The notes beneath the pieces were generated by a model that did not search any database, had not been told where the DNA came from, and was given only the letters and a program-made list of their open reading frames with translations. Position numbers and translations under genes: made by a program. DNA of 64,000 nucleotides from Streptomyces puniciscabiei (lineage in GTDB: Bacteria; Actinomycetota; Actinomycetes; Streptomycetales; Streptomycetaceae), in the NCBI RefSeq assembly GCF_006715785.1, contig NZ_VFNX01000003.1, positions 124,001 through 188,000 of the forward strand, in the 5' to 3' direction. How positions within the stretch are numbered: position 1 is the stretch's first letter; the number at the start of each line of letters is the position of its first letter. Positions 45,236-60,483 of this stretch are shown piece by piece.

Positions 45236-45667
45236 CTACGGGCTCTCCATGGACTCCCTCCCCTGGACCACGCACAGGGCCCAGATGATGAAGCCGGACA
45301 GGGCGATCATCACGACGGACCACACCGGGTAGTACGGCAGGGACAGGAAGTTGGCGATGATCACCAGCCCGGCGATGCCCACGCCGGCGACGCGCGCCCA
45401 CATCGAGGGTGTGAACAGGCCGAAGCTGACGATCACGGCGATCGCGCCCAGGACCAGATGGATCCAGCCCCAGCTGGTGAGGTCGAACTTGAAGACGTAG
45501 TTCGGCGTCGTCACGAAGACGTTGTCCTGGGCGATCGCCATGATGCCCCGGAATATCCCGAGCAGCCCGGCAAGCAGCAGCATGACACCCGCGAAGGCCG
45601 TCAGGCCGCCCGCCCAGGCCTGCCGGGTGGTGCGGGTGTGGGCGCGAGCGGAGGGGGTCGTGGTCAT
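45236..45667 (-). CDS. DUF7144 family four-helix membrane protein (second copy)
   Basis: 143 residues, four membrane segments, sharing FRGIMAIAQDNVFVTTPNYV, FDLTSWGWIHLVLGAI and LSLPYYPVWSVVMIALSGF with the protein at 12079-12507. ATG 45667 (MTTTPSARAH) is chosen; the open frame extends upstream without similarity. Placed 34 bp downstream of the SHOCT gene and probably cotranscribed with it. Confidence 0.85.
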   Translation of the reverse strand: MTTTPSARAHTRTTRQAWAGGLTAFAGVMLLLAGLLGIFRGIMAIAQDNVFVTTPNYVFKFDLTSWGWIHLVLGAIAVIVSFGLFTPSMWARVAGVGIAGLVIIANFLSLPYYPVWSVVMIALSGFIIWALCVVQGRESMESP

Positions 45668-46220: not shown

Positions 46221-46254
46221 TGCCGTTCTCACCATGCACACGGTGAGAACGGCA
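46221..46254. other. 13-bp inverted repeat upstream of the SHOCT gene
   Basis: TGCCGTTCTCACC and GGTGAGAACGGCA pair perfectly around an eight-base loop. Less G+C-rich than nearby hairpins. It lies between the TCACCCG dyad and the SHOCT start, so in the untranslated leader or promoter; it could also end the HdeD transcript. Confidence 0.55.
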
Positions 46255-46259
46255 CGTCC

Positions 46260-46276
46260 TCACCCGAGGCGGGTGA
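46260..46276. promoter_or_regulatory. TCACCCG-N3-CGGGTGA dyad, site 1
   Basis: Perfect 7+3+7 dyad (spacer AGG) 91 bp before the SHOCT ATG. One of five related sites in the island. Confidence 0.6.
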
Positions 46277-46289
46277 TCGTGCGCCCGGG

Positions 46290-46937
46290 TCACTCCACGG
46301 GACCGGGTGCGCCCGGCAGCACCCCGCCCCTGCGCAGCGCGGCCCGCCAGGCGAAGGCGGCCACCAGCTCCACCAGGCCCAGCAGTACGAGCCACAGCCC
46401 CAGCAGCCGGGTCAGCGCCCGCGCCGATTCGGCGGGCAGGGCCAGCACGACGATCCCGGCGACGATGCCGAGCAGTGCGGCTCCCAGGACGACACCGCGG
46501 TGCGGCAGGTCCCTGGCGGCGATCGCCGGGTAGAGCGTGAGGAGGCCGGACACCAGCCACACCAGTCCGACGATCAGTGACAGCGCGGTGATGGTCTGCA
46601 GCGGATTGCGCAGGCACAGCACGCCGGCCAGGACGTACAGCACGGCGGCCAGCAGGCCGGGAAGCCGGTCCGCGTGGTCCTCCCGCGCGAACGCCGTCAC
46701 GAACCGGATCGCGCCGCCGAGCAGCAGGTAGAGGCCGAGGACGACGGCGAGGACGTGCAGCGTCTCGTCCGGCCAGACGAGGATCAGCACGCCCGGTACC
46801 AGCGTCATGACCGCCGACACCAGGATCCAGGTCCAGGAGCGGGCGATCACCGTCACGGCCTGTGCGGGACCGTTGCCCGCCTCGCCGGGCGGATATGGCA
46901 TCCCGGCCCGCGGCTGCTGTCCACGCGGTGCGGTCAT
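46290..46937 (-). CDS. HdeD-family membrane protein
   Basis: 215 residues with six membrane segments in the DUF308/HdeD repeat arrangement: ILVSAVMTLVPGVLILVWPD, VLGLYLLLGGAIRFVTAF, VLYVLAGVLCLRNPLQTI, LIVGLVWLVSGLLTL. E. coli HdeD contributes to acid resistance; function here is inferred only at the level of envelope stress. ATG 46937 has GGAGGA four bases upstream. Divergent to the DUF2252 gene across a perfect dyad. Confidence 0.88.
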   Translation of the reverse strand: MTAPRGQQPRAGMPYPPGEAGNGPAQAVTVIARSWTWILVSAVMTLVPGVLILVWPDETLHVLAVVLGLYLLLGGAIRFVTAFAREDHADRLPGLLAAVLYVLAGVLCLRNPLQTITALSLIVGLVWLVSGLLTLYPAIAARDLPHRGVVLGAALLGIVAGIVVLALPAESARALTRLLGLWLVLLGLVELVAAFAWRAALRRGGVLPGAPGPVE

Positions 46938-47033
46938 GGCTCCTCCTCGCGATCGGCACGGGCCTCGCACGCACTGCCGGCGGGCGGCCCGCGGCCCTGG
47001 AGCGGACAGCATTCCCGGGGCCGCAGGTGCGCC

Positions 47034-47056
47034 GGATCACCCGCCGCGGGTGATCC
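47034..47056. promoter_or_regulatory. TCACCCG-N3-CGGGTGA dyad, site 2 (divergent promoter)
   Basis: Best site of the set: arms GGATCACCCG and CGGGTGATCC around CCG, perfect over 10 bp each side. It is 97 bp from the HdeD ATG and 72 bp from the DUF2252 ATG, so it can serve both genes. Confidence 0.7.
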
Positions 47057-47127
47057 CTCCCGCCGGAGGGGGCGGTGGGGTGGAGCGCACCGGCCCACGG
47101 CCGGCCGAAGGACCAGGAGGGTGGATC

Positions 47128-48531
47128 ATGAGCACACCGAGTGCCGTCGCTGTGTCGCCGGCCGACCGTGCCGCCCGGGGCAGGAGGGCGCGTCGGCGCG
47201 CGCCGCGCTCGGTCCACGGCGTGTTCGAGGCCGCGCCGGACCGACCGGACGCGGTCGACGTGCTGGAGCGGCAGTCGGCCAGCCGCGTCCCGGAGCTGGT
47301 GCCGATCCGCTACGGCCGCATGCTCGCGTCCCCCTTCCGCTTCTACCGGGGCGCGGCGGCGGTCATGGCGGCGGACCTGGCCCCGCTGCCGCGGACCGGC
47401 CTCGAGGTGCAGTTGTGCGGGGACGCCCATCTGCTCAACTTCGGGCTGCTGGCCTCGCCGGAACGGCATCTGGTGTTCGACATCAACGACTTCGACGAGA
47501 CGTTCCCGGGCCCGTTCGAGTGGGACGTCAAGCGGCTGGCGGCCAGTATCGCCGTCGCGGGGCGGGACAACGGCTTCACCCAGCAGGAGCAGGACGACGC
47601 GGTGCGCACCGGCGTGCGGGCCTACCGGCAACGGATGCGGGAGTTCGCGGGCATGCGCACCCTGGACGTCTGGTACGCCCGGGACGACGCCGACCGGCTG
47701 CGCGGGCTGCTGGCCGCCTCGATGGACGAGGAGAGCAGGCGTCGTACGGCCGGGGCGGCCGCCCGCGCCCGTTCCCGGACCCATCTGCGGGCCTTCGCCA
47801 AACTCACCCGGCGTACGCCGGAGGGCCGCCGGATCGCCGCGGACCCACCGCTGCTCACCCCCCTGCGGGAACTGCGCGGCGAGACCTCCCCCGACGAGGA
47901 GGACAAGGCGCTGCAGGCGCTGCTGGAGTCGTACGCGCGCAGCCTGCCCCCGGACCGGCGGCACCTGCTGCGGCACTACCGACTGGTGGACATGGCGCGG
48001 AAGGTGGTGGGGGTCGGCAGCGTCGGCACCCGGTGCTGGATCCTGCTGCTGCTCGGCCGGGACGACGACGATCCGCTGCTGTTGCAGGCCAAGGAGGCCG
48101 GGGAGTCGGTGCTCGCGGCGCACACGGGCGGCGAGCGGTACGACAACCAGGGCCGCAGGGTGGTGGCCGGGCAGCGGCTCCTGCAGGCGGCCAGTGACAT
48201 CTTCCTGGGCTGGACGCGTGTGGCCGGCCTCGACGGGCGCGACCGGGACTTCTACGTACGGCAGTTGTGGGACTGGAAGGGCGGCCTCCGGCCGGAGGGC
48301 TGGGATCCCGGCCTGCTGAGCCTGTCCGGCCGGGTGTGCGGGGCGGCCCTGGCACGGGCCCATGCGCGCTCCGGTGATCCGGTCGCCATCGCCGCCTATC
48401 TCGGCGGCGGGGACCGCTTCGACCGTGCGCTGTGCGGGTTCGCGCAGGCCTACGCGGACCGCACCGAGCGGGACTTCGAGGCGCTGGGCGGGGCGGTCCG
48501 CGCGGGCCGGATCGTCGCGGCCGAGCTGTGA
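47128..48531 (+). CDS. DUF2252 family protein (kinase-like fold)
   Basis: 467 residues. VPELVPIRYGRMLASPFRFY, QLCGDAHLLNFGLLASPERH and FDINDFDETFPGPFEWDVKR are the defining DUF2252 blocks; CGDAHLLNFG and DINDFD resemble the catalytic HxDxxxxN and metal-binding Asp of aminoglycoside phosphotransferase-fold kinases. Substrate unknown. GGAGG precedes ATG 47128. Confidence 0.9.
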   Translation: MSTPSAVAVSPADRAARGRRARRRAPRSVHGVFEAAPDRPDAVDVLERQSASRVPELVPIRYGRMLASPFRFYRGAAAVMAADLAPLPRTGLEVQLCGDAHLLNFGLLASPERHLVFDINDFDETFPGPFEWDVKRLAASIAVAGRDNGFTQQEQDDAVRTGVRAYRQRMREFAGMRTLDVWYARDDADRLRGLLAASMDEESRRRTAGAAARARSRTHLRAFAKLTRRTPEGRRIAADPPLLTPLRELRGETSPDEEDKALQALLESYARSLPPDRRHLLRHYRLVDMARKVVGVGSVGTRCWILLLLGRDDDDPLLLQAKEAGESVLAAHTGGERYDNQGRRVVAGQRLLQAASDIFLGWTRVAGLDGRDRDFYVRQLWDWKGGLRPEGWDPGLLSLSGRVCGAALARAHARSGDPVAIAAYLGGGDRFDRALCGFAQAYADRTERDFEALGGAVRAGRIVAAEL

Positions 48532-48564
48532 GGGACGGCCACCGGGCCTGTCCGCGGGCGGCGC

Positions 48565-48762
48565 TCACTCCGGCATCTGCCGCATCTCCACGACCCGGAG
48601 TCCCAGCGACTGGCAGCGGTTCAGCAGCCCGTAGAGGTGGGCCTCGTCGATGATGGGACCGAACAGCACCGTCTGACCGGACATCATCACGTGATCCAGC
48701 TCCGGGAAGGCCTTGGTGAGGGTCTCCGACATCTGTCCATCGACGCGGATCTCGTAGCGCAT
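48565..48762 (-). CDS. small conserved protein, 65 residues
   Basis: MRYEIRVDGQMSETLTKAFP then ELDHVMMSGQTVLFGPIIDE and HLYGLLNRCQSLGLRVVEMR. Alternating beta-alpha-beta pattern, no membrane segment. Similar short proteins occur widely in Streptomyces stress clusters; no name known. GGGAGA precedes ATG. A one-mismatch TCACCCG dyad is 71 bp upstream. Confidence 0.75.
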   Translation of the reverse strand: MRYEIRVDGQMSETLTKAFPELDHVMMSGQTVLFGPIIDEAHLYGLLNRCQSLGLRVVEMRQMPE

Positions 48763-48832
48763 GGGCCGTTCTCCCGCCGCGGGCCTGCTGCCGTCTTGCC
48801 CCCGATCCTGCTCCGCCCGGCCGCACCGGGCC

Positions 48833-48849
48833 TCACCCGGCACAGGTGA
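48833..48849. promoter_or_regulatory. TCACCCG-N3-CGGGTGA dyad, site 3
   Basis: TCACCCG-GCA-CAGGTGA: one mismatch in the right arm. 71 bp upstream of the 65-residue protein's ATG. Confidence 0.5.
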
Positions 48850-48864
48850 TCCGGGGTCCGGGCC

Positions 48865-49398
48865 TCAGTGCGACAGAGCGATCTTGAACGTGATGATCGC
48901 CAGGCCGAGCAGCAGATTGACCGCGGCGGTGCCCGCCACCAGGCACCAGGACGCGCCCGCCTGCCGTGCGCCGGCCGCGGACCAGCCCACCTGGCCGGTC
49001 ACGGCGACGGCGACCGCCAGCCAGATCGTGCCGTCGACGTCCAGGCCGAGCAGCGGGCTGACGGCGACGGCGAGGGCGGGCGGCACTGCCGCCTTGACGA
49101 TCGGCCATTCTTCGGCGCACACCCGCAGGACGGTCGGCCGGTCCAGGGCCCGTTGCGCGAGACGGGCGCCGAACAACTGGGCGTGGACATGCCCCACCCA
49201 GAAGACGAGGCCGGTCAGCAACAGCAGAATGACCAGTTGCACCCGGGGGAACTGCCCCAGCGCACCAGCGCCGATCACCACCGACGCCGCGAGCATCGAT
49301 CCGTAGACGGCACCCGTGTAGTCGGCGTGGGCACGGCGCTCGGCACGACGTTCCCGGGCCGTGGTGCGGCCGGTCGAGGGCGTCCCCGTGACCTTCAT
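48865..49398 (-). CDS. four-helix membrane protein of unknown function
   Basis: 177 residues. A basic N-terminus (RTTARERRAERRAHAD) precedes four hydrophobic segments: YGSMLAASVVIGAGALG, LVILLLLTGLVFWVGHVHAQ, PPALAVAVSPLLGL and a C-terminal AGTAAVNLLLGLAIITF. Resembles a family of actinobacterial integral membrane proteins. GGGAG lies just before ATG; five bases separate it from the MFS stop, so both belong to one operon. Confidence 0.72.
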   Translation of the reverse strand: MKVTGTPSTGRTTARERRAERRAHADYTGAVYGSMLAASVVIGAGALGQFPRVQLVILLLLTGLVFWVGHVHAQLFGARLAQRALDRPTVLRVCAEEWPIVKAAVPPALAVAVSPLLGLDVDGTIWLAVAVAVTGQVGWSAAGARQAGASWCLVAGTAAVNLLLGLAIITFKIALSH

Positions 49399-49403
49399 GC
49401 TCC

Positions 49404-51032
49404 CTACTCCACGGCGTTCGCGAGGCCGGCCGGTGCGCCGCCCTGCGAGGTCCGCCCACGGCGGGGCGGCGCGGTCGGCAGGTGCGGGGTGACGAGGAGG
49501 CTCGCGAGAGTGATGCCTCCGGTGGCGAGGATCGCCGCCTTCAGGCCGTCGAGCTGTGCCGAGGCGTATGCGGAGGTGAGGGCGTCGACCTCGGACGGTG
49601 GCAGTCCGGCGCGCTGGGCCCCCGCGCGGACCTGGTCGGTGGGCACGAAGCTGATCCCGGCCTGCAGGCGGACGCTGGTCTGCTGCTTGGTCTGGGCCGA
49701 CAGCTGGGGATGGCTCTCCACCCCGGCGGTGAACGCGTGCGCCAGCGCGCCGATGAGCATCGACCCGATGAGCGCGGTACCCAGCGCCGAACCCAGGTTC
49801 TGGGCCGTGAACTGCAGGCCGCCGACCTCGCTGCGCTCGGCCTCCCCGGCACTCGACTGGACGACGTTGCCCAGCTGGGAGGCGAGCAGCCCCATGCCGA
49901 TGCCGAGTACCGCCATGGCACCGGCGAACTGCGCGTCGTCGATCTTCGGCTGGATGGTGGCGAGCAGCCACACGATGGCCACGGCCAGCGTCAGCAGGCC
50001 CAGCCGGACGACCAGGCGGGGCCCCAAGGTGCGGCCGAGCCGCGCGGCGCCCAGGGAGGTGACGAGCATCGTGGCGGACACCGGCAGCAGTCTGAGCCCC
50101 GTCTGGAAGGCATCGAACCCCTGCACCACCTGCAGGTACAGCGGGATGGTGAAGAACAGTCCGAGCAGGATCAGGTTCTGGCTGAGCAGGGTGAGCAGAC
50201 CCGAGCGCAGAGGCGGCCGGCCGAACAGGGACAGGTGCACCAGGGGGTCGGCGCCCGCGGCCTCCCGCCTGCGGTCCCAGCGCACGAACAGCGCCAGTAC
50301 GGCAGCCCCGGCGGCGACGACGAAGAGGGTGGGCGCGAAGCCCAGAACGGTGAAGGGCGGGTTGCGCGGGTGCACCCAGCCCCAGGTGCTGCTCTGCAGC
50401 ACACCGAGCACGCCCAGCCCCAGTCCGCCCGCGGAGAGCGCCGCGCCGACCACGTCCAGCCGGGGCGGCGGTCCGGTGCGCGCGGCCTCCTTGACGACCC
50501 GGTGGCACAGCAGGACGACGAGGACGACGACGACCTCGCCCGCGAAGACCAGCCGCCAGGTCAGATACGTCGTCACCCAGCCGCCCAGCAGCGGGCCCAC
50601 CGCGATACCGGCACCGGCCAGCCCGCCGATCACGCCGTAGGCGACGGCCCGGTCCCTGCCGCGGTAGGCCTCGGCGACCAGGGCCGCCATCGCGGGCAGC
50701 ACCATCGCGGCGCCGAGTCCCTCGATCACCGACCAGCCCAGGGCGAGCACCCACAGGGTGGGCGCCAGGGCGGTGAGCGCCGAGCCGACGCCGTAGACCA
50801 TCAGGCCGAGCAGGAACAGACGGCGGCGGCCGTGGATGTCGCCGAGCCTGCCTCCGACGATCATGAACGCGGCCATGACCAGCGCGTACAGGGTGATGAC
50901 GGCCTGGATGGCGGTGACCTCGGTGTGGAAGTCCTCGACCAGTTGGCTGATGGAGACGTTCATGACGGACGTGTCCAGGACCATCAGGAACTGGGCCGTG
51001 CCCAGCACCATCAGAGTGCGCCAGTGTCCCAT
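49404..51032 (-). CDS. MFS drug exporter, DHA2 (EmrB/QacA) type
   Basis: 542 residues, 14 predicted helices. FLMVLDTSVMNVSISQLVED is the helix-1 motif D1 of 14-TMS antiporters; GGRLGDIHGRRRLFLLG the loop motif; AGIAVGPLLGGWVTTYLTWR motif C of proton/drug antiporters. GGTGG overlaps upstream of ATG 51032; GTG 51041 is possible. Coupled with the membrane protein downstream. A near-perfect TCACCCG dyad lies 63 bp upstream and a LAL regulator gene is immediately upstream. Confidence 0.92.
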   Translation of the reverse strand: MGHWRTLMVLGTAQFLMVLDTSVMNVSISQLVEDFHTEVTAIQAVITLYALVMAAFMIVGGRLGDIHGRRRLFLLGLMVYGVGSALTALAPTLWVLALGWSVIEGLGAAMVLPAMAALVAEAYRGRDRAVAYGVIGGLAGAGIAVGPLLGGWVTTYLTWRLVFAGEVVVVLVVLLCHRVVKEAARTGPPPRLDVVGAALSAGGLGLGVLGVLQSSTWGWVHPRNPPFTVLGFAPTLFVVAAGAAVLALFVRWDRRREAAGADPLVHLSLFGRPPLRSGLLTLLSQNLILLGLFFTIPLYLQVVQGFDAFQTGLRLLPVSATMLVTSLGAARLGRTLGPRLVVRLGLLTLAVAIVWLLATIQPKIDDAQFAGAMAVLGIGMGLLASQLGNVVQSSAGEAERSEVGGLQFTAQNLGSALGTALIGSMLIGALAHAFTAGVESHPQLSAQTKQQTSVRLQAGISFVPTDQVRAGAQRAGLPPSEVDALTSAYASAQLDGLKAAILATGGITLASLLVTPHLPTAPPRRGRTSQGGAPAGLANAVE

Positions 51033-51094
51033 GGTGTCCACCACCTCGCCGAGTGCTCCCGCCCCCAGGGGAGCGGCAGGTGCCGCCGCGCGCC

Positions 51095-51111
51095 TCACCC
51101 GCCGCGGGCGA
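51095..51111. promoter_or_regulatory. TCACCCG-N3-CGGGTGA dyad, site 4
   Basis: TCACCCG-CCG-CGGGCGA: one mismatch in the right arm. 63 bp before the MFS exporter ATG, in the gap after the LAL regulator gene. Confidence 0.5.
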
Positions 51112-51136
51112 GATGCCCGGCCACGGTCGGCCCCCG

Positions 51137-53788
51137 TCAGATCAGCCCGTGGTCGCGCGCCCGGCGCACCGCCTCGGCGCGGCCGTTCACGCCGAGTTTC
51201 CGGTAGGCGCTCTTGAGGTGGGTCTTGACCGTGTTGACCGACACGTACAGGTCGGCGGCGATCTCCTCCGTGGACATCAGGTCGGCCAGCCTGCCCACGA
51301 CCTCGCGTTCGCGTCCGCTCAGCTCCTCGACGACCGGGGACGAGGTCTCCTCGGCCGCGCCCCCACTGCCGCACGGGGTGAGCCAGCCGGCGGCCAGGCC
51401 CTGCAGCGGCGGCGTGTCCAGCAAGTGCCGGATCCCCGGTCCAGCTTCGAGGAACGGGCGCCGCAGCCGTTCCCGCCGGGCCTCCCGCAGTGCCCGGGCG
51501 AGCAGTCCGCGCGCGGTGTCGGCGTCGGACTCCTGAGCGGCCTCGGCGCGCACCAGCGCGGCCCGGACGCTCGCCCTCGGGCCGGTACGGCCCTGCGTCC
51601 GCATGTGGTCGAGCAGGTCCACCGCTGCTGCCCGGTCGCCCGCGGCGAAACGGGCCCACGCCATCTCCGCCGCGCACGTGGGCTCACCGGCGCAGGAGAT
51701 GTCGTCGAGCACCTTCAAGGCGCTGTCCCGGCGGCCCTCGGCCAGCTGCGCCGCGGCGGCGACCAGCGCCGTCTGCGCCCGCGCCCAGGGGGAGGTCACC
51801 AGGGCCGGCACGGCGGGGTCGGCCGCCGCCGCGGCGGCCCGTGGCTCGCCCTGCGACAGCAGCAGCCGTGCCGTCGCCAGGGACCGGCCGACGGCCGTCA
51901 CCGGGTCGCGCGGGGCTCCCGCGTCCGCCGCCTCGTCCAACAGGGCCTGGGCCTGAGCCAGTTCGCCGCGATCGACGGCCACGGCCGCCAGCACCAGCTG
52001 CCCGAGGCCCGAGCCGCAGGAGTGGGGGCGGCCGAGGCCGTACCTCTCCGCTTCCCGCCGGGCCGCCTGTGCCGTGCGCTCCGCCCGGCACAGCCGGCCG
52101 TCGAGGTAGTCGATCAGCGCCAGCTGTCCGAGGGCGTCCTCGCGCGGCAGCGCCGTGGAGACATCACTGGGGCATGCGGCCACCTCGGACAGCGCGGCGC
52201 GCGCGTCGTCGAAGCGCCCGGCCCACAGCCGGGCCGAGCCCAGGTGGGTCAGCAGCAGCGCGGTGAACTCGGGGTGGTTCTCCAGCAGTTGGGCGGGGAC
52301 CGCGCCCCGCAGTTCCCCGGCCGCCGCCACGGCCTGCTCGGCCATGCCGGGCGAGCCGGTGAGCCGGGCCGCCAGGGACTGCAGCAGCACGCAGCTCAGC
52401 CGGCCCGCCGCGTCCGGCTCCGCGGCGAGGCGCTTCTCGGCGCGGCGCAGATGGACCAGGCCGTGTTCCACGTCGTACGCGGACAGGTCGCGCGCGGCGC
52501 GCACGAGGTCCGCCGCCGCGGTCGTCGCCTCGGGTCCCATCCGGGAGAACAGCTCGGCGAGGTCGCTCGAGCGCAGCCCGGTGAAGAGCCGGCCGATCGA
52601 CAGGTCGTCGACGAGGGCCTGTGCGGTGAAGTTCCAGTCGCCCGCGGCGGCACCGTGCGCCAGTGCCTCGGGCAGGGCGCCGGAGCCGCGCAGCCACCGC
52701 GCGGCGCGCCGGTGGAGTTCGGTCTCGAGCCCGGGCGAGCGGACCCTCAGATGGACCCGGAGGATCTCGCCGAACAGCGGGTGCAGGCGGTACCACGAGT
52801 GTCCGAGGTCCTCCACGAACGCGTTCTGGCGGTGCAGTGCGGCGAGGGCCTGTTCGGCACCGCCGCGCCCGGTCAGTTCGGCCACCAGTGCGGGGGTGAA
52901 CCGCTCCACGACACTGACGCGCAGCAGCAGGTCCTGGGTGCGGGCCGGCTGCCGTTTCAGCACCTCGGCCAGCAGGAAGTCGGCGATCGGGCTCCGGCCC
53001 GCCTCGAAGTCCTTCAGATACGTCTCGGGGTCCGGGCTCTGCCGGGCGGCCAGGGCGCACAGGCGCAGCCCGGCGGCCCAGCCCCTGGTGCGCTCCACCA
53101 GGGCGCGGGTGGCGTCCTCGGGAAGCCGCAGCCCGTGCCGGTCCAGGAGCGCGGCGGCCTCGTCCACGGTGAAGGCCAGCTCGGCGTCCCGGATCTCGGT
53201 CATGGCCCCGGCCGCCCGGTAGCGGTGCAGCGGCAGCAGCGGCTCGGTGCGGGTGACGAGGACCAGGCGCAGCCCCTGCCCGGCGTGGTGCAGGACGAAC
53301 TCCAGCTGTTCCGCGATCCGTGCGGAGGTCACCCGGTCGAACTCGTCCAGCACGAGGACGACGGGCCGCTCCCGCCCGCTCAGTTCGTCGGCGAGACGGG
53401 CCAGCAGCTTGTGGTCCACGCGATGCGCCTCGCCGGGGAAGCCGAGATCGGCCGGGAGCGGCACCTCGGCGGTCCGAAGGGCCTGGAGCACATAGGCCCA
53501 GAAGACTCCGCAGCCTTGGTTTCCTTCCTCGTCGGTGAGCCAGGCGACCGGTTGTCCGAGCCGGGCGGCCCAGTCCGCGACCAGCAGCGTCTTGCCCGCG
53601 CCGGCCGAACCGTTGACCATCGTCAGGGGGGTGTCGAAGCCCTGGTCGAGATGTTCGGCGAGCCGCGGGCGCCGCAGGAACGTGGCCGGCGTGGCCGGGA
53701 GGGCGAACCGGGTCTGCAGAAACGGCTCTCCCAGGGGATCGACGCGGGGACCGGCCGATCGCCTCGTGATCTCGTGCCGCGTGGTCAC
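51137..53788 (-). CDS. LuxR-family regulator of the LAL/MalT class
   Basis: 883 residues. An AAA+/STAND ATPase begins near residue 30 (LQTRFALPATPATFLRRPRL), Walker A VNGSAGAGKT about 58, Walker B RPVVLVLDEFDRV about 135, then winged-helix RYRAAG/LLDRHGLRLPED, a long TPR-like helical region (about 420-800) and a C-terminal LuxR HTH from about 815 (LSGREREVVGRLADLMSTEE then NTVKTHLKSAYRKLGV). Such ATP-driven activators respond to a ligand bound to the TPR region. GTG 53788 follows GGGGGT. Probably controls neighbours including the exporter; its own upstream region has tandem repeats and a long dyad. Confidence 0.92.
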   Translation of the reverse strand: MTTRHEITRRSAGPRVDPLGEPFLQTRFALPATPATFLRRPRLAEHLDQGFDTPLTMVNGSAGAGKTLLVADWAARLGQPVAWLTDEEGNQGCGVFWAYVLQALRTAEVPLPADLGFPGEAHRVDHKLLARLADELSGRERPVVLVLDEFDRVTSARIAEQLEFVLHHAGQGLRLVLVTRTEPLLPLHRYRAAGAMTEIRDAELAFTVDEAAALLDRHGLRLPEDATRALVERTRGWAAGLRLCALAARQSPDPETYLKDFEAGRSPIADFLLAEVLKRQPARTQDLLLRVSVVERFTPALVAELTGRGGAEQALAALHRQNAFVEDLGHSWYRLHPLFGEILRVHLRVRSPGLETELHRRAARWLRGSGALPEALAHGAAAGDWNFTAQALVDDLSIGRLFTGLRSSDLAELFSRMGPEATTAAADLVRAARDLSAYDVEHGLVHLRRAEKRLAAEPDAAGRLSCVLLQSLAARLTGSPGMAEQAVAAAGELRGAVPAQLLENHPEFTALLLTHLGSARLWAGRFDDARAALSEVAACPSDVSTALPREDALGQLALIDYLDGRLCRAERTAQAARREAERYGLGRPHSCGSGLGQLVLAAVAVDRGELAQAQALLDEAADAGAPRDPVTAVGRSLATARLLLSQGEPRAAAAAADPAVPALVTSPWARAQTALVAAAAQLAEGRRDSALKVLDDISCAGEPTCAAEMAWARFAAGDRAAAVDLLDHMRTQGRTGPRASVRAALVRAEAAQESDADTARGLLARALREARRERLRRPFLEAGPGIRHLLDTPPLQGLAAGWLTPCGSGGAAEETSSPVVEELSGREREVVGRLADLMSTEEIAADLYVSVNTVKTHLKSAYRKLGVNGRAEAVRRARDHGLI

Positions 53789-53900
53789 AGGGTCACCCCC
53801 TGTCGTCGGCGTGCGGAGCGGGCTCCACTCGATCAGGATCCCAGCTTTCCGGCCCGCACGCAGATCGCAGCGGGCCGGGCGTCCCCTCCCGCTTCCCGCA

Positions 53901-53940
53901 TCGCACCCGTAGGTCCCTGTTCGCACCTGTAGGCCCCTGT
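53901..53940. repeat. 20-bp direct repeats upstream of the LAL regulator
   Basis: TCGCACCCGTAGGTCCCTGT and TCGCACCTGTAGGCCCCTGT are adjacent, 18 of 20 bases identical, 113-152 bp upstream of the regulator start. Two helical turns per unit would place two protein monomers on one face of the DNA. Confidence 0.7.
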
Positions 53941-53950
53941 GACGGGCCGC

Positions 53951-53982
53951 GGTCGTCGGTCGTCGACCGACGACCGACGACC
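53951..53982. other. 15-bp perfect inverted repeat upstream of the LAL regulator
   Basis: Arms GGTCGTCGGTCGTCG and CGACGACCGACGACC with only AC between. Each arm is itself two copies of a 7-bp word (GTCGTCG). It is 98 bp after the stop of the upstream membrane-protein gene, so terminator or operator are both possible. Confidence 0.7.
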
Positions 53983-54080
53983 GGCGGGGGCGGCGCCCGA
54001 ACCCTGCGACGCCTGCCGGGTGGCCGCCGGCGAGCGGGGCCGGCTGCACGGCCTGCCCGGGATCCGGCAGGGTCCTGCCG

Positions 54081-56261
54081 TCAGCGCGCGTTGCCCGCCC
54101 GGCCCGGTTTGCCGCGTGCCGCCTCGAGCTGGACGCGGCCCGCGGCCGCCAGCAGGGTGAGCACGGCCAGGACGCCGAGCAGGACGAGGACCAGCAACAG
54201 GACGGTGAGCACCGTCGGGTGGTTCCAGAGCGCGAAGACGAGCGCGATGATCAGCAGGGCGAGGAGCGTGACGGCCCGCCGGTAGGCCAGCGCGTACGCG
54301 CCGACGCGCCCGACGCCGATGTGGTGGCCGGCCGCCCAGCGTGCCGCGGAGTCCGCCGTGTGGTCGGAGTAGCCGCGGAGGGCCACGGGCAGCCGTCCTG
54401 GTCCGACGAGATACGCGCCCAGGGCGATGACCACGCCCAGCACGATGACCGTACGCAGACTGACCCGCAGAAAGCGCAGCAGGGTGTCGAAGACGGCCCC
54501 CGCCGCGGCCCTCGACTGCACCTGGGGCGGGAGGTGGTCGAGGTAGTAGTCGCGCGCCACGACCAGGCCGATGGCCACGACCAGGCAGGCGAAGGCGGCG
54601 CCGAGCGCGGTACGGGCCAGGGCCCGGCGCCGGTGGTGGGCCAGGAACACGCCGGCGGCACCGAGCAGCACGACGAGCACCGGGAACCAGTTCCCGACGG
54701 CGTCGAGGAGGCGGGCGCCCTTGCGGAGCTTGGCGAGCTGGTCGGACTGGAACAGCACCAGTTGCTTGTTCACCTGCGGGATCTTGGCGGCTGGTTTCAG
54801 GCCGGCGGCGACGAGCTCGTCCTTCACCCGGTCGACGGCCTTGCCCACGTCCAGGGTGACGGTGCCGTCGCTGACCCCGAACGCTCCGCGCCCCTTGCCG
54901 GTCAGGGCGTGCACGACGGCGTTGTGGGCAGCGCGGTTGGCGTCCCGCCACACCGTCGCGAAGACGCCGCTGTGGACGACACGGGTGGCGATCCTGGTCA
55001 CGGCCGAGTCCACGGCGGAGTCGATCTGCGGTCCGAGCCGGCTGATCGCGTCGGCGGCGAGCGGCGGCAGGCCCTGGGACTGCAGCCAGGAGGCGATGTC
55101 CCCGGCGACCTTCTTGCCGTCGACGTGCGCCCCCACCGCCTCGGTGATCCGGTGGACCGCCGCGTCCTGGACGGCCGGCTCGGTGGCCAGCGGGGCGACC
55201 GTGGACACATAGCGATCGGTGTCGAGCGCGATGTCGTGCACCCAGGTGGCGAGCAGCGCGACCGGTACGAGGACGCAGGTCAGCACGATGAGCACGGCCG
55301 AGGCGACGGTGCGCCCGACCCGCCCCGGGCCGGAGCCCCCGGCACGGCCCCGGGGCGGCCGCGCGCTCCCCCCACCGCCCGCGCCCCTGCGCTCCGGCGG
55401 AGGCGGAACCAGGTCGGGCCGGTGCGGCTCCCGGTCCGGCGGATCCACCGCGCCCCCCACCCGACCCGGCTCCGGCTCCGGCTCCGGCTCCGGCTGGTGC
55501 GAACCCTGCTCCGGCTGGTACGAGCCCCGATCCACCCGGTACGAGTCCCGGCCCGACAAGTCCACCTCCCCGCCCACCCGGCCCGGACCCGGATCCGGCC
55601 GGCGCGAACCCCGCTCCGGCCAGTGCGAGTCCCCGCCCGCCAACTCCGAACCCCGAGCCACCCCAACTGAAGCCCGATCCACCCCGCCGAAGCCCCGATC
55701 CACCTGGTTCGAGTCCCGGCCCGGCGGGTCCACCTCCCCGCCCACCCGGCCCGGACCCGGATCCGGCCGGCGCGAACCCCGCTCCGGCCAGTGCGAGTCC
55801 CCGCCCGCCAACTCCGAACCCCGAGCCACCCCAACTGAAGCCCGATCCACCCCGCCGAAGCCCCGATCCACCTGGTTCGAGTCCCGGCCCGGGGTGTCCA
55901 CAGTGCCACTCGCCCGGTCGGAGCCCCGATCCTCCCGGTACGAGTCCCGGACCCACGGGTCCACTGCGACCACCTGGGCCGGAGCCGGACCCGGTTGCAG
56001 TGAACCCCGCTCCGGCCGGTGCGCGTCCTGAGCGCCCACCCGGACCGGACCCGGATCCGGGTACGGCGAACCCCGCTCCAGCTGGTACGACCCCCCATCC
56101 GGCCGGTCCATCTCCCCGCCCGCCACCTCCAAACCCCCAGCCGGCCGGTGCGTGGCCCCGGGTCTTCCTGGTGCGTCGTCCGGCGCCTGTGCCTGCCGCG
56201 TCCCGTGCGCCTCCCGCGGTGCATGCGGTTCGGGTCGCTGCGGGGCGGGTGGCTTGGTCAC
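54081..56261 (-). CDS. integral membrane protein with long repeat-bearing disordered N-terminus
   Basis: 726 residues. The first about 300 are Pro/Gly/Arg/Asp-rich and disordered, including a 56-residue direct duplication and a run of Glu-Pro pairs. A membrane helix (VASAVLIVLTCVLVPVALLA) is followed by an extracytoplasmic domain of about 220 residues (TWVHDIALDTDRYVSTVAPL, IDSAVDSAVTRIATRVVHSG) and a C-terminal group of about five helices. This arrangement is known from actinobacterial stress-associated membrane proteins of unknown function. GTG 56261 (VTKPPAPQRP) with GGAGA is preferred; the frame is open to 56393. The repeat may be a flexible cytoplasmic tether. Confidence 0.82.
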   Translation of the reverse strand: MTKPPAPQRPEPHAPREAHGTRQAQAPDDAPGRPGATHRPAGGLEVAGGEMDRPDGGSYQLERGSPYPDPGPVRVGAQDAHRPERGSLQPGPAPAQVVAVDPWVRDSYREDRGSDRASGTVDTPGRDSNQVDRGFGGVDRASVGVARGSELAGGDSHWPERGSRRPDPGPGRVGGEVDPPGRDSNQVDRGFGGVDRASVGVARGSELAGGDSHWPERGSRRPDPGPGRVGGEVDLSGRDSYRVDRGSYQPEQGSHQPEPEPEPEPGRVGGAVDPPDREPHRPDLVPPPPERRGAGGGGSARPPRGRAGGSGPGRVGRTVASAVLIVLTCVLVPVALLATWVHDIALDTDRYVSTVAPLATEPAVQDAAVHRITEAVGAHVDGKKVAGDIASWLQSQGLPPLAADAISRLGPQIDSAVDSAVTRIATRVVHSGVFATVWRDANRAAHNAVVHALTGKGRGAFGVSDGTVTLDVGKAVDRVKDELVAAGLKPAAKIPQVNKQLVLFQSDQLAKLRKGARLLDAVGNWFPVLVVLLGAAGVFLAHHRRRALARTALGAAFACLVVAIGLVVARDYYLDHLPPQVQSRAAAGAVFDTLLRFLRVSLRTVIVLGVVIALGAYLVGPGRLPVALRGYSDHTADSAARWAAGHHIGVGRVGAYALAYRRAVTLLALLIIALVFALWNHPTVLTVLLLVLVLLGVLAVLTLLAAAGRVQLEAARGKPGRAGNAR
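55561..55896. repeat. 168-bp tandem duplication inside a membrane-protein gene
   Basis: Copy 1 starts at 55561 and copy 2 at 55729, both beginning TCCACCTCCCCGCCCACCCG; they are near identical to the end of copy 2, where CCCGGCGGGTCCA becomes CCCGGGGTGTCCA. Encodes a 56-residue repeat. Confidence 0.95.
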
Positions 56262-56373
56262 GGGGTCTCCGGCTGGGTGGGGGAACGAACACCCCCATTG
56301 CGTCAGCCCCGTGGACGTTCCGCGCGGCGGGTGGACCGGACGGGCGAGGGCGCACCCCCACACAGGCGAGGAC

Positions 56374-57258
56374 TCACGAACCCCGCGCCGCACGGTCCCG
56401 CCGCGCAGGCGGGCTGCCGAGGCGGTCCGCCAGGAAGGGCTCCTGCGCGAGGACGGCGCCGACGCTGACGGCGACCGCCGCGGCGACGCACACCACGATC
56501 AGCCAGGACAGGAGCACGAACACCGACCCCACGGAGCCGTAGTCGGTGAGGGCCCGCTCGAGGGCCCGCGGCATGTACAGACGCGCGGTCACCGCCACCG
56601 CGGTCAGAACGGTCGCCGTGATCAAGGCGCCCGGCAGCAGCGGCTTCCAGCCGACCAGGCCGCCGAGCAGGAGATGCTGGGTCCACCACCACAGACCCAC
56701 CTGACTGACCCAGGTGAGGGGGATGCCGAGCCAGGCGCCGGCTCCGAAGCCGTCGCGCAGCGGGCCCTGGAGCACCAGGACGCCGACCCACAGGCCCAGC
56801 CAGGCCAGCCACCGCCAGGGGGCGATCCTGGTGCCGGTGCGCGGGATCTCCCAGGCTCGCTTGCACAGGCGTTGCATCGACCGGCTGACCGCGGTCGCCG
56901 ACAGCAGCACCATCAGCACGCCCACCACGCCGGTGGTCTGCTTCAGGTCGCCGGACGTGGGCTGGAGCGCCTGCTCCAGTTCGGCACGCGCCGCACCCGT
57001 CAGCCCGAGGACCGCTGTCACGGAGGCGATCAGCTGGTGGCGCACCCTCTCCGGAGCGTAGGCCGCGACGACGAACAGCAGGGGGACCGCGGTCAGAAAG
57101 CACTGCGCCGCGAGGCGCGTGGCGGAATCGAAGATGTTCACGGACACCATGCGGTCCGCGAGATGGGTGACCACGGGGAACCGGCTCTCCGCCCGCCGGT
57201 GCACCGATTTCGCCCAGGCGGCCAGCTTCCGGGCACGCTCCGCGGCCGCCATCAGCAT
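56374..57258 (-). CDS. YihY/BrkB-family membrane protein (second copy)
   Basis: About 294 residues, six helices. SVNIFDSATRLAAQCFLTAV opens the first helix, AVSRSMQRLCKRAWEIPRTG matches the loop with conserved aromatic/basic residues and the C-terminus carries ALTDYGSVGSVFVLLSWLIV. Unlike the 8841-9677 paralogue it lacks NNHKYG. ATG 57258 is taken; the frame is open to 57534, ribosome site weak, so the start is uncertain. Divergent to the DUF6325 gene. Confidence 0.82.
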   Translation of the reverse strand: MLMAAAERARKLAAWAKSVHRRAESRFPVVTHLADRMVSVNIFDSATRLAAQCFLTAVPLLFVVAAYAPERVRHQLIASVTAVLGLTGAARAELEQALQPTSGDLKQTTGVVGVLMVLLSATAVSRSMQRLCKRAWEIPRTGTRIAPWRWLAWLGLWVGVLVLQGPLRDGFGAGAWLGIPLTWVSQVGLWWWTQHLLLGGLVGWKPLLPGALITATVLTAVAVTARLYMPRALERALTDYGSVGSVFVLLSWLIVVCVAAAVAVSVGAVLAQEPFLADRLGSPPARRDRAARGS

Positions 57259-57335
57259 CCCGGCGGAAAGCTCTGCGGGCACGACAACCGGCCCGCGCCT
57301 GCGGACGACGCTCCGACGGTCGGCATCACATCGCC

Positions 57336-57370
57336 CCTTTCCGGCCTTTCCGACTTCCGACCTTTCCGAC
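57336..57370. repeat. three copies of CCTTTCCGRC upstream of the BrkB gene
   Basis: CCTTTCCGGC at 57336 and CCTTTCCGAC at 57345 and 57361. They lie 78-112 bp upstream of the BrkB start. Spacing (9 and 16 bp) is irregular. Function unknown. Confidence 0.5.
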
Positions 57371-57545
57371 TGGGACCAGCGTGGCGGGCCGGGCGCCCCG
57401 TGGCACTCCGGAGCCGAATGTGCGGGCCCCCGCCCCGCGTGGTGGACTGGAATGGCAACGGGGGCGGCGAGCGTCGGCCGCGGGCCGCTGTCGCGGGGCG
57501 ACGGCCCGAGCGGTACCGGCTCCCTGCGCCTCACGAGGAGAAGTC

Positions 57546-58004
57546 ATGGACAGCGTCGAAGAGATGGGGCCCGTCGACTACCTGGTCATCGAGTTCCCCG
57601 GCAACCGTATGACGGGAGAGGCGTTCCCACTGCTGGTCGACCTCGTCGACCGCGGGATCGTCCGGATCATCGACCTCGCGTTCGTGCGGAAGGAGACCGA
57701 CGGCTCGGTCGTCGCACTGGAGTTGCGGGACGTCGGCGGCGAGACCGATCTGACGGTCTTCGAGGGGGCCTCGGCCCGGGTGCTCGACCAGAGCGACCTC
57801 GAGGAGGCGGCCAACGCGCTGGAGGCCGGGAATTCGGCTGCGGTGCTGATCTACGAGAACCTGTGGGCCGCTCCCCTGGCCGGCGCGCTCCGGCGCAGCG
57901 GGGCGCAGCTCGTCGCGAGCGGCCGTATCCCGGTGCAGGCTCTGCTGGCGGCGTTGGACGCCACGGAGGAGACGGTGCCGCCGGGCGGCTCCGCGGCTGC
58001 CTGA
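57546..58004 (+). CDS. DUF6325/DUF1269-like soluble protein
   Basis: 152 residues. MGPVDYLVIEFPGNRMTGEA then IVRIIDLAFVRKETDGSVVA, VLDQSDLEEAANALEAGNSA and AVLIYENLWAAPLAGALRRS follow the DUF1269/DUF6325 plan often linked with SHOCT proteins. GAGGAG precedes ATG. Followed 69 bp later by a SHOCT gene, with which it commonly pairs. Confidence 0.85.
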   Translation: MDSVEEMGPVDYLVIEFPGNRMTGEAFPLLVDLVDRGIVRIIDLAFVRKETDGSVVALELRDVGGETDLTVFEGASARVLDQSDLEEAANALEAGNSAAVLIYENLWAAPLAGALRRSGAQLVASGRIPVQALLAALDATEETVPPGGSAAA

Positions 58005-58073
58005 GAGCGGCCACCGGAGTGTCCCCCAGGCTGTCCCCCGCCCCTCCGCATCGATCATGGGAGATGACCGAAC

Positions 58074-58400
58074 ATGCCCGGACTGCTTCGCGGTGTCGCC
58101 CGCACGGCCGTCGTCGCCGGTACCGCCACCGCCGTGTCCAACCGCGTCTCTCGGCGCCAGGCCGGCCGCTGGGCCCAGCAGGACTACGAACGGCGGCAAC
58201 AGTACGAGCAGCAGTACGCACAACCGGAGTACGCGCAGCCGCAACAGCCACCGCCGCCCCCTCCCGCCGCACCGCCGCCCGCGGCCGCCGACGACATGAC
58301 CCAGAAGATCGACCAGCTCAAACAGCTGGCGGATCTGAGGGCCCAGGGAGTCCTGACGGACGAGGAGTTCGCCGCCCAGAAGCGGCTGCTCCTGGGCTGA
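58074..58400 (+). CDS. SHOCT domain protein
   Basis: 108 residues: a short N-terminal amphipathic region (MPGLLRGVARTAVVAGTATA), a Gln/Tyr/Pro-rich linker and a C-terminal SHOCT motif (LKQLADLRAQGVLTDEEFAA). Forms a probable unit with the DUF6325 gene. GGGAGATGACC upstream may supply the ribosome site. Confidence 0.85.
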   Translation: MPGLLRGVARTAVVAGTATAVSNRVSRRQAGRWAQQDYERRQQYEQQYAQPEYAQPQQPPPPPPAAPPPAAADDMTQKIDQLKQLADLRAQGVLTDEEFAAQKRLLLG

Positions 58401-58432
58401 GCCACGTCCGCACGGCGTACGCTCGGCACAGC

Positions 58433-58852
58433 ATGACCACCTCGCCCGACCCGCGTCCGCCCGACGCCCGCGCCCTGGACCAGCGCCTCGACGCCCTCGC
58501 CCGGCAGCCGTTCCGGGCCCGGTTCCATCTGCGCGGCCGGGACCGGGCGACCGCCGGGCTGAAGGGGCCGGCGACGATCCGGTGGCATGCCTATGACCTG
58601 ATCGCCAAGCGGCTCGCGCCCGCCGAGCCGTACAAGGACGGCAAGCAGACGCCGTACCGCGGTCACCCGGTCTTCGTCGCCCAGCACGCGACGGCCACCT
58701 GCTGCCGGGGCTGTCTGGAGCGCTGGCACGGGATTCCCAAGGGGCGGGAGCTGACCCGTGCCGAGCATGTGTACGTGGTGGACGTGATCTGCCGGTGGAT
58801 CGAGCGGGAGATGGCGGGCGGGACCGGTCCCGGCCCCGCCCGTCGGCGCTGA
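58433..58852 (+). CDS. DUF4186 family protein
   Basis: 139 residues. RFHLRGRDRATAGLKGPATI, PVFVAQHATATCCRGCLERW and HVYVVDVICRWIEREM fit DUF4186, a small family with conserved His and a Cys pair (CCRGC) that could bind metal. No ribosome site; a TACGCT at 58418-58423 could be the -10 of a leaderless message. Its stop abuts the stop of the convergent peptidase gene (TGATCA). Confidence 0.8.
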   Translation: MTTSPDPRPPDARALDQRLDALARQPFRARFHLRGRDRATAGLKGPATIRWHAYDLIAKRLAPAEPYKDGKQTPYRGHPVFVAQHATATCCRGCLERWHGIPKGRELTRAEHVYVVDVICRWIEREMAGGTGPGPARRR

Positions 58853-60400
58853 TCAGAGCGTCGCGGAGTTCTCGTGCCAGTGCCCGCCGCGCCTGCTGTG
58901 CGGGGCCATGAGCGACGAGGTGACCGGGGTCACCGTCCAGTCGGGGTGGCCCGGCATGCGCGGGGTCTTCGTGCCGTACAGCCAGTCATGCAGGAAGCCG
59001 GACTGGTCCTGGCCGGAGACCTCCGAGGCGACGGCGATGTAGTCGGCCGTCGACGCCGACGTGTTGCGGAACCGGTCCAGGAAGGCACGCTCGACGGCGT
59101 GGAACACGTCCTCGCCGACCAGCTGGCGGAAGGCGTACAGGACGAGGACGCCGCCCAGGTAGCGCTGGCTGTCGAAGAGGTTGGTGGCGTTGGGCGCGGC
59201 CACCGGGCCGGAGTCGTGGCGCCACTGGTCGCCGCGGGCGTAGGTGTCCTTCATCCGGGCCTCCATCGTGGTGAGCCCGAGGGAGTCGGTCCAGCCGCGC
59301 TCGTAGCGGTAGAGCAGCCCGTAGAAGTCGGCGTGTCCCTCGTTCAGCCATAGGTCGGCCCAGGTGGCGGGGCTGACGAGATTGCCGAACCAGGAGTGGA
59401 CCAGCTCGTGCATCATGTGCGAGCCGATCTTCTTCTCCTCCTGGAGCAGGAAGTTCGGCTTGTACAGGGTGAGGGTCTGGGTCTCCAGGCCGGTGAAGTC
59501 GAAGGCGTTCGGGTCGTCGGAGTTGCACGGCAGCAGGCCGTACGTCTCGAAGGGGAAGGCGCCGAGGCGGTCCTCCAGCCAGGTCACGAGGCCGGGGGTG
59601 AGCGCGAGGGCCGGTTCCAGGGCGGCGGCGCGGGCCGCGGGGACCACGTCGCGCAGGGGCAGACCGTGCGGACCCTGCCGTTCCTTGATCACATAGTCGC
59701 CGACGGTGATCTGGACGAGTTCCGTGGCGATCGGCGAGAGCGAGCGGTAGGAGAAGGCCGTACGGCCGTCTTCGAGTGTCTCGCTGCCGGTGAGCACGCC
59801 GTTCGCGACCGCCCGCAGGCCGGCCGGGACGGTGAGGCGGAAACTGAAGGCCGCCTTGTCGGACGGGTGGTCGTTGCACGGGAAGACGGTGTGCGCGGAG
59901 TTCGGCTGCGGGCAGACCGCGAAGCCGTCCGGGGTGGGCACCCAGGCCGTGTGCGCCAGGGTGCGGTGCGGGTCGGCGGAGTAGGTGACGCGGACGGTCG
60001 CGGCCGCGTCCTCCGGGAGCGGCTCGGCCGGTGTGATGCGCAGCTTCTCGTCCGCCTGTTCCCAGCCGGCACTCCGGCCGCAGACGGACACGGAGGCTAT
60101 GTCCAGGCCGAGCGCGTCCAGCGAGAGCCGGGTCAGCGCCCGGGTGGTGCGGATCCGCAGGGCGGCGGTGGCCTGCACCAGCTTGGTCGTGGGGTCGTAG
60201 GCGAGGTCGAGGTGGTACGACGACACGCCGTAGCCGTCGTTGCCGAGGGCCGGGAAGACCGGGTCGCCGAGGGTCTCCGCACCGGGCTCCCCCGTGCGCG
60301 CCGCGGTGCCGGCCGCGTGGGCCGGGGAGCCCGCGGTCAGCGCCGTGGCCGTACCGATGAGGGCGGCCGCGGGGGCCGTCACTCTGCTGCGATATCTCAT
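58853..60400 (-). CDS. secreted M1-family metallopeptidase
   Basis: 515-residue exported zinc peptidase; ATG 60400 opens onto a signal peptide ending SPAHA. Catalytic core: HELVHSWFG (about 327) with the third zinc ligand Glu in NEGHADF exactly 18 residues later. The N-terminal beta domain (SSYHLDLAYDPTTKLVQATA, CNDHPSDKAAFSFRLTVPAG) is present. Where aminopeptidases have GAMEN for binding the free N-terminus, this protein has FTGLETQTLTLY, suggesting altered specificity. Short relative to typical 800-plus M1 enzymes because the C-terminal ARM domain is absent. A 7-bp-spaced CACCCG dyad is 59 bp upstream. Confidence 0.9.
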   Translation of the reverse strand: MRYRSRVTAPAAALIGTATALTAGSPAHAAGTAARTGEPGAETLGDPVFPALGNDGYGVSSYHLDLAYDPTTKLVQATAALRIRTTRALTRLSLDALGLDIASVSVCGRSAGWEQADEKLRITPAEPLPEDAAATVRVTYSADPHRTLAHTAWVPTPDGFAVCPQPNSAHTVFPCNDHPSDKAAFSFRLTVPAGLRAVANGVLTGSETLEDGRTAFSYRSLSPIATELVQITVGDYVIKERQGPHGLPLRDVVPAARAAALEPALALTPGLVTWLEDRLGAFPFETYGLLPCNSDDPNAFDFTGLETQTLTLYKPNFLLQEEKKIGSHMMHELVHSWFGNLVSPATWADLWLNEGHADFYGLLYRYERGWTDSLGLTTMEARMKDTYARGDQWRHDSGPVAAPNATNLFDSQRYLGGVLVLYAFRQLVGEDVFHAVERAFLDRFRNTSASTADYIAVASEVSGQDQSGFLHDWLYGTKTPRMPGHPDWTVTPVTSSLMAPHSRRGGHWHENSATL

Positions 60401-60454
60401 GGTCCGCCTTCGCTCGGGCGGCCGGGTGGTCGGGTCCGGCCGCCGGGTCAGTGG

Positions 60455-60483
60455 GCGATCACCCGTGGTCGGCGGGTGATCGC
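60455..60483. promoter_or_regulatory. CACCCG/CGGGTG dyad, site 5 (7-bp spacer)
   Basis: Arms GCGATCACCCG and CGGGTGATCGC, perfect over 11 bp, spacer TGGTCGG. Related to sites 1-4 but with a four-base longer spacer. Located 59 bp upstream of the peptidase ATG and 136 bp before the isocitrate dehydrogenase start. Confidence 0.5.

Follow-up and report, generated by a model that had tools for sequence, protein, structure and literature searches.

A conserved dyad at the promoters of a Streptomyces puniciscabiei gene island: a putative operator, most probably read by the resident LuxR-type LAL regulator

The window analysed here, a stretch of 64,000 nucleotides from Streptomyces puniciscabiei, contains an island of genes encoding a SHOCT/PLDc_N protein, a DUF7144 protein, an HdeD/DUF308 protein, a DUF2252 protein, small proteins of 65 (p65) and 177 residues, an MFS exporter and a LAL regulator, with the dyad TCACCCG-N3-CGGGTGA or a one-mismatch version of it in four of the intergenic regions (Table 1). 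Relatives of the DUF7144 protein are found in 72 of the 80 related loci described below. In 5 of 54 loci (L053, L082, L092, L094 and L103), where no MFS ortholog is shown, a dyad belongs to the gene for the 177-residue protein itself. S. avermitilis may carry the system as well, judging by proteins under that name at 67-68% identity. The LAL regulator has 883 residues, with an N-terminal ATP-binding part (AAA_22 above and AAA_16 below the cut-off) and a C-terminal GerE (LuxR-type) helix-turn-helix at residues 822-877 (E 1.1e-13); its open frame extends to position 54049, so that alternative starts are possible. The NCBIfam MalT model covers residues 24-394, and in its MalT-like N-terminal part and C-terminal GerE domain the protein resembles MalT and other LAL regulators, although its score of 262.6 bits falls short of the curated MalT equivalog cut-off of 537.

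Table 1. Features of the island and its surroundings (window coordinates).
Feature	Position	Strand	Remarks
Operator 1 (putative), exact dyad	46260..46276		Upstream of SHOCT/PLDc_N-DUF7144 pair; at SHOCT promoters of 76/80 loci
-10-like hexamer CATGGT, SHOCT promoter	46231..46236	-	23 nt after dyad
Operator 2 (putative), exact dyad	47037..47053		Common to divergent HdeD and DUF2252 promoters
-10-like hexamer AATGCT, HdeD promoter	47008..47013	-	
-10-like hexamer TGGGGT, DUF2252 promoter	47076..47081	+	
Operator 3 (putative), one mismatch in gene-distal half	48833..48849		Upstream of p65
-10-like hexamer CAGGAT, p65 promoter	48805..48810	-	
Operator 4 (putative), one mismatch in gene-distal half	51095..51111		Upstream of MFS exporter and 177-residue protein
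-10-like hexamer TCCCCT (weak), MFS promoter	51067..51072	-	
LAL regulator, 883 aa	51137..53788	-	Proposed activator at the four operators (domains, linkage, co-occurrence)
SHOCT/PLDc_N protein	45702..46169	-	Proposed target
DUF7144 protein	45236..45667	-	Downstream of SHOCT gene, same direction; probable operon with it
HdeD/DUF308 protein	46290..46937	-	Proposed target
DUF2252 protein	47128..48531	+	Proposed target
65-residue protein (p65)	48565..48762	-	Proposed target; no family match
177-residue protein	48865..49398	-	Probable second gene of MFS unit; no family match
MFS exporter resembling DHA2 type	49404..51032	-	Proposed target; NCBIfam scores below cut-offs
N7 dyad, M1 peptidase/isocitrate dehydrogenase intergenic region	60459..60479		Considered, not counted as a member

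The four dyads at one mismatch or fewer compare with an expectation of 0.07 for the window, and none of 100 dinucleotide shuffles reached four. In the 9.15-Mb genome as a whole there are six such N3 dyads, four of which lie within this 4.9-kb part of the window (a clustering with a chance of about 9e-9), whereas a control pattern gave no match in the same scan. The remaining two are found at C1:438078 and at C3:8613, the latter inside open frames, one of them with coding-like GC3. Measured from coordinates, the dyads precede the start codons of the SHOCT, HdeD, DUF2252, p65 and MFS genes by 90, 99, 74, 70 and 62 bp, respectively. Five sites had been listed in the first-pass annotation, at distances of 59-97 bp; four of them stand, with the second moved by three bases from 47034 to 47037 and the range corrected to 62-99 bp for the supported promoters.

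The fifth site, at 60459, has perfect arms and a seven-base spacer, and its assignment as a regulon member upstream of the M1 peptidase gene was not borne out. A match of this kind arises in 5 of 100 shuffles, the N7 arrangement occurs once in the 80 loci (with one mismatch in an altered arm, in the same M1 peptidase-isocitrate dehydrogenase intergenic region of L048), and the -10-like element of the other sites is absent by eye at the 60459 site.

The dyad is also retained at orthologous promoters. Within 80 related loci, fetched by similarity of the SHOCT protein alone and with the dyad not used as a criterion, it precedes the SHOCT gene in 76 at one mismatch or fewer and in all 80 at two mismatches, and is found at 49 of 56 HdeD, 23 of 39 DUF2252, 44 of 70 p65 (60 at up to two mismatches) and 27 of 48 MFS promoters (33 at up to two). 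These loci hold 222 N3 dyads, as against at most nine sites for any other spacer between 0 and 15, and for 205 of the 222 the start of a target gene follows within 260 bp. The claim that no copies lie inside genes holds for the four window dyads and the genes assigned there, but less clearly for the related loci: 14 of the 222 fall where a known homolog extends by extrapolation, and of the 17 with no such target start, several overlap called frames. Across 199 genomes of the genus, the exact dyad is present in 73 and a reversed control in 7. Taken together, the shuffles, the genome-wide count, the control pattern and the conserved promoters reject a chance origin. The identical base is changed in all 44 one-mismatch p65 sites, and the mismatch lies in the distal rather than the proximal half at 44 versus 0 p65 and 27 versus 0 MFS sites. 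The corresponding counts for HdeD (4 distal, 34 proximal) and SHOCT (3 and 7) led us to drop the rule that the promoter-proximal half always stays intact.

A -10-like TAnnnT element lies 22-23 nt downstream of the dyad in five unrelated promoter families, with the score summed over the five families peaking at offset 23 (6.98 of 15, compared with 3.90 and 3.66 at the next offsets); SHOCT promoters alone score higher at offset 24. From this nearly constant distance across unrelated promoters, as expected for class II promoters, we infer that the dyad occupies the class II activator position near -43, as placed by the -10-like element. In this respect it would resemble the lux box of Vibrio fischeri, a dimer site centred near -42.5 beside a class II activator promoter, with the difference that the position in the present case derives from the -10-like element alone. 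No two-hexamer sigma-70 promoter was found in 45000-54200, a result of little weight given that shuffles gave 0.2.

Several lines of evidence point to the resident LAL regulator, already put forward as a candidate in the first-pass annotation, as the protein that reads the dyad. Among the 11 commonest neighbour families (those found in at least 21 of the 80 loci), LAL, present in 53 loci, is the sole family with a recognised DNA-binding domain, in a frame calling that is crude and could miss small regulators. For the 24 loci whose fetched stretch lacks LAL, a search of 20 genomes found a LAL at E<=1e-40 in 18, in some of them just outside that stretch. In the 199 genomes, exact dyad and LAL occur together in 53, the dyad only in 20, LAL only in 11 and neither in 115 (p 8e-21), and an exact dyad with no LAL found was recorded in 15. 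The dyad at one mismatch or fewer is present in the SHOCT regions of 15 of the 19 genomes with LAL but of 2 of the 19 without it (p 5e-5); a genome counts as LAL-less here if none of its 73-81 scored candidates, out of 73-220, gave a match at E<=1e-20. The two exceptions, G139 and G008, are drafts in many contigs. Conversely, LAL-bearing genomes include 7 SHOCT promoters, out of 45, that are without the dyad even at two mismatches. On the SHOCT tree, dyad and LAL go together in an average of 3.7 of the only four well-supported independent pairs (p 0.125). LALs of only 41-54% identity often have dyads nearby, and seven of nine LAL regions fetched on purpose contain one at one mismatch or fewer, the others being L193, with one two-mismatch site only, and L198 (LAL 66% identical), with none. 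Dyads before the LAL genes themselves were seen in few loci (L105, L171 and L191); of three entries in the corresponding 80-locus count, L105 is valid and two are slicing artefacts (distances 9348 and 10425).

A response regulator of the LuxR/NarL type, encoded elsewhere and co-inherited with LAL, is an unlikely alternative reader of the dyad. The genome offers candidates, with 40 matches to a BldM query (BldM itself included), and the helix type of this class suits the dyad; against it, the dyad tracks LAL in rearranged loci too, and within the crude frame calling LAL stands alone among the 11 commonest neighbour families in having a recognised DNA-binding domain. The recognition helix proved uninformative in choosing among regulators: the pattern VNTVKTHLK-x-x-[YF]RKL is nearly constant across 45 aligned LAL rows, but TVKTH recurs widely among the genome's other NarL/LuxR-type proteins, and a search pattern for helices of this type matched 6 of 12 loci, including BldM, with TVKTH in 5 of these 6. 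A search of solved structures with the helix-turn-helix domain returned GerE, VraR and NarL types among the matches and no chain named BldM.

The half-site also raises the question of BldM itself, which is encoded in the S. puniciscabiei genome and whose group I palindrome, TCACcCgN2cGgGTGA, is known from footprints on two promoters (PMC4125116). The half-sites TCACCCG/CGGGTGA are identical to those of this operator, so that the motif, which the first-pass annotation did not recognise as a named operator, is known in part. Shared as well are the inverted arrangement of the seven-base half-sites, a LuxR/NarL-type helix-turn-helix regulator and, as proposed here, activation. The published spacer, however, is two bases (a 16-bp palindrome; PMC4125116), whereas the sites described here have three and are clustered in one island: the 80 loci contain 5 N2 versus 222 N3 sites, and the S. 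puniciscabiei genome has, at one mismatch or fewer, 27 N2 sites with none in the window, as against 6 N3 sites with 4 in the window. Furthermore, N3 dyad presence follows the LAL gene and not BldM, which is identical wherever looked for. Because BldM is 100% identical in all 19 LAL-less genomes, 17 of which showed no dyad in the examined SHOCT regions, BldM alone fails to explain the dyad pattern. With these counts, BldM is rejected as the sole regulator, and it is quite improbable that a BldM homodimer binds these promoters by tolerating a three-base spacer.

That the dyad forms an RNA hairpin, as a terminator or 5' leader structure, is very improbable despite the position of three of the four window dyads 13-25 bp, by their coordinates, past the preceding gene's stop codon: its constant distance to the -10-like element places it upstream of the inferred transcription start, the 47037 dyad sits between divergent genes, 19 of 27 MFS promoter sites contain a C-T opposition unpaired in either strand, 2 of the 40 two-mismatch sites in the 80 loci have a compensated pair (one-mismatch sites being zero by construction), and no terminator-like site was found in 45000-54200.

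The N3 dyad thus probably serves as operator to a dimeric activator of the LuxR type, for which the resident MalT-like LAL is the most likely candidate, and this mirror-image element most likely switches on a small group of genes together. MalT binds its ligand together with ATP, and LAL, in the same state, would present paired C-terminal helix-turn-helix domains to the two half-sites, which lie about 10 bp from each other in the interval from about -51 to -35; the suggestion that half-site centres at this distance suit a dimer of the LuxR/NarL type appears to have been well made. Contact between LAL and RNA polymerase would turn on the SHOCT-DUF7144, HdeD, DUF2252, p65 and MFS genes together, with the single symmetric dyad in the HdeD/DUF2252 gap serving both promoters. 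The shared operator and compact regulon of the first-pass annotation are likewise favoured by the clustering of the genomic dyads and by the conserved promoters, and the genes themselves (membrane proteins, an HdeD-like protein, an exporter) make an envelope-stress role plausible.

Few LAL regulators, to our knowledge, have a known operator, and the boxes of MalT are asymmetric, in contrast to the short palindrome proposed here. The present analysis gives a LAL a candidate palindromic operator and delimits a small candidate regulon of poorly understood genes. Streptomyces genomes are rich in LAL regulators, S. coelicolor having 14 putative ones (PMC3282765), and the LALs described in the relevant part of that paper are phosphate and antibiotic regulators, for which that part gives no operator palindrome.

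The chances are about even that BldM and a MalT-like ATPase of the LAL type, two unrelated kinds of regulator in one cell, recognise a common half-site, with nothing but one spacer base (N2 versus N3) to distinguish their targets. The extra base would then keep the LAL and BldM regulons apart, a clean case of spacer length possibly separating two regulons with a common half-site, and one inserted or deleted base could be enough to transfer a promoter from the developmental to the stress-type regulon or back.

As a separate observation on the N2 sites of the S. puniciscabiei genome, 10 of the 27 correspond to one repeated sequence, which is probably mobile because the three copies examined (L126, L127 and L128) have near-identical flanks.

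The dyad TCACCCG-N3-CGGGTGA (the N3 dyad) occurs four times in the window at up to one mismatch, where 0.07 occurrences are expected and none of 100 shuffles reached four, and raising the tolerance to two mismatches adds no further site. In a scan with a weight matrix derived from related promoters these four sites score 18.7-25.4 bits of a maximum of 27.0, the next best place in the window reaching 6.5 bits. The entire genome (9.15 Mb in nine contigs) has six such sites, these four included, and no match to a reversed control pattern. Among 199 genomes drawn evenly from the genus, the exact dyad is found in 73 and the control pattern in seven. The N3 dyad is almost certainly a real, conserved operator positioned at promoters, a LuxR-type palindrome one spacer base apart from that of BldM; it would mark a compact regulon whose genes are of membrane and stress type.

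Positions of the dyads and of two genes in the window
Feature	Position	Strand
N3 dyad	46260	
N3 dyad	47037	
N3 dyad	48833	
N3 dyad	51095	
LAL regulator gene	51137-53788	-
MscS-type mechanosensitive channel gene	44041-45132	
Dyad with 7-bp spacer (N7)	60459-60479	

In the exact-dyad survey, a SHOCT ortholog lies downstream of the dyad in 18 of 30 loci from other genomes (L007-L036). Similarity to the SHOCT/PLDc_N protein was the sole basis for assembling a set of 80 loci, the best-matching 80 among 570 confirmed relatives; by title, 78 come from Streptomyces, one from an 'Actinobacteria bacterium' and one from a Catenulispora MAG, with some species present twice. Within it, the dyad precedes the SHOCT start by a median of 80 bp, and a target start lies within 260 bp downstream of 205 of the 222 N3 sites, the other 17 having none. 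Each alternative spacer (0-2 and 4-15) accounts for at most nine sites. Gene order is variable and the dyads are re-used: a single dyad is common to SHOCT and DUF2252 in two loci (L087 and L095). No MFS ortholog was seen in the five loci where a dyad with no more than one mismatch precedes the 177-residue protein.

Neighbour families, starts preceded by an N3 dyad, and dyad-anchored promoter elements in the 80 loci (best 80 of 570)
Family	Loci of 80	Dyad, up to one mismatch	Dyad, two mismatches	Promoter element
DUF7144	72			
SHOCT	67	76/80	80/80	CACGCTGA
65-residue protein	57	44/70	60/70	ACGATCG
LAL	53			
MFS exporter	50	27/48	33/48	TGCGATGG
HdeD	49	49/56	51/56	GA..CTTG-like string
177-residue protein	46	5/54	7/54	
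DUF2252	36	23/39	24/39	TGGGGTGG
Three further families	31, 23, 21			
Isocitrate dehydrogenase		0/3		
M1 peptidase		0/1		

When the promoters are anchored on the dyad, five unrelated families share a conserved element containing A/T at a constant position relative to it. Scoring T1, A2 and T6 of TAnnnT at each offset after the dyad gave a single clear peak at 23 nt (6.98 of 15). The next highest scores lie at offsets 28 (3.90) and 24 (3.66), and the SHOCT family scores higher at 24 than at 23. If this is a -10 element, the dyad would span about -51 to -35, centred near -43 relative to the putative transcript start. The likely regulator, LAL, would act as a class II activator.

The N3 dyad is most likely the operator of LAL, the resident MalT-like regulator with a C-terminal LuxR-type HTH. 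By crude frame calling, LAL alone carries a recognised DNA-binding domain among the 11 neighbour families found in at least 21 of the 80 loci; of the three further families, two match BrkB and a diacylglycerol kinase domain and one is without a match. A direct search locates part of a LAL, 55% or more identical, in 56 loci. For 20 of the remaining 24 the complete genome was searched, and 18 of these genomes encode a LAL at E ≤1e-40, 44-65% identical and in some cases just outside the fetched stretch. In the 199 genomes (LAL called at E ≤1e-40, the best 11 candidates scored per genome), exact dyad and LAL occur together in 53, dyad only in 20, LAL only in 11 and neither in 115; deeper searching of all 20 dyad-only genomes revealed no LAL in 15, whereas the other five (G042, G054, G058, G060 and G188) have a more distant one.

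Near SHOCT, a dyad at up to one mismatch is present in 15 of 19 LAL-bearing versus 2 of 19 LAL-less genomes (40 regions of 5-16 kb from 38 genomes, picked partly by LAL status). The two exceptions, G139 and G008, are draft assemblies in about 1010 and 740 contigs. In a tree built from 66 SHOCT proteins, with up to two mismatches allowed in the dyad, 38 have LAL and dyad, 7 LAL only, 2 dyad only and 19 neither, the dyad-positive class being inflated because some loci were chosen for an exact dyad. LAL and dyad differ together in sister cases such as G190/G136 and G018/G051, and the tree offers four supported pairs (p 0.125). Seven of nine fetched LAL regions contain the dyad with no more than one mismatch; the assignment to LAL is slightly less sure because a good site is absent from the other two, L193 having one site at two mismatches only and L198 none. 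Five loci (L158-L162) represent a second lineage of the system, with LAL 52-54% identical and two same-orientation SHOCT genes, each having a dyad with one or two mismatches.

The first-pass annotation's remark that the motif was not recognised as a named operator needs amending, since the half-sites are those of the published BldM group I palindrome, TCACcCgN2cGgGTGA, reported with footprints (PMC4125116) and resembled by a motif in S. griseus (PMC8914203); the spacer differs, being two bases in the BldM operator and three here. BldM alone does not explain the occurrence of the N3 dyad, because of this spacer, because the 27 N2 sites of the source genome all fall outside the window, and because BldM is present, identical at 203 of 203 residues, in each of the 19 LAL-less genomes, of which 17 have no dyad in the SHOCT regions examined. 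Open-licence papers were searched for these genes together, for operators of LAL proteins, for BldM and for the motif; the matches listed, including passages of PMC4125116, PMC8914203, PMC13118837, PMC3466318 and PMC3282765 (the last on the S. coelicolor LALs SCO0877 and SCO7173), gave no description of the N3 operator or regulon. Ten of the 27 N2 sites are TCACCCGCGAGGGTGA (contigs C1, C2 and C5 of the source genome G000; e.g. L126, L127 and L128), which probably belongs to a repeated mobile gene, given the near-identical flanks of the three copies read.

The MscS-type gene adjoins the SHOCT-DUF7144 pair and has no N3 dyad at up to one mismatch nearby. The N7 dyad between the M1 peptidase and isocitrate dehydrogenase genes recurs in locus L048 (around 5078) with identical spacer letters and one arm changed. 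At the centre of loci L012 and L028, from two other genomes, an exact N3 dyad is embedded in a longer palindrome, GGGGCGG...CCGCCCC, which differs from the regulon sites and is perhaps a terminator-like element.
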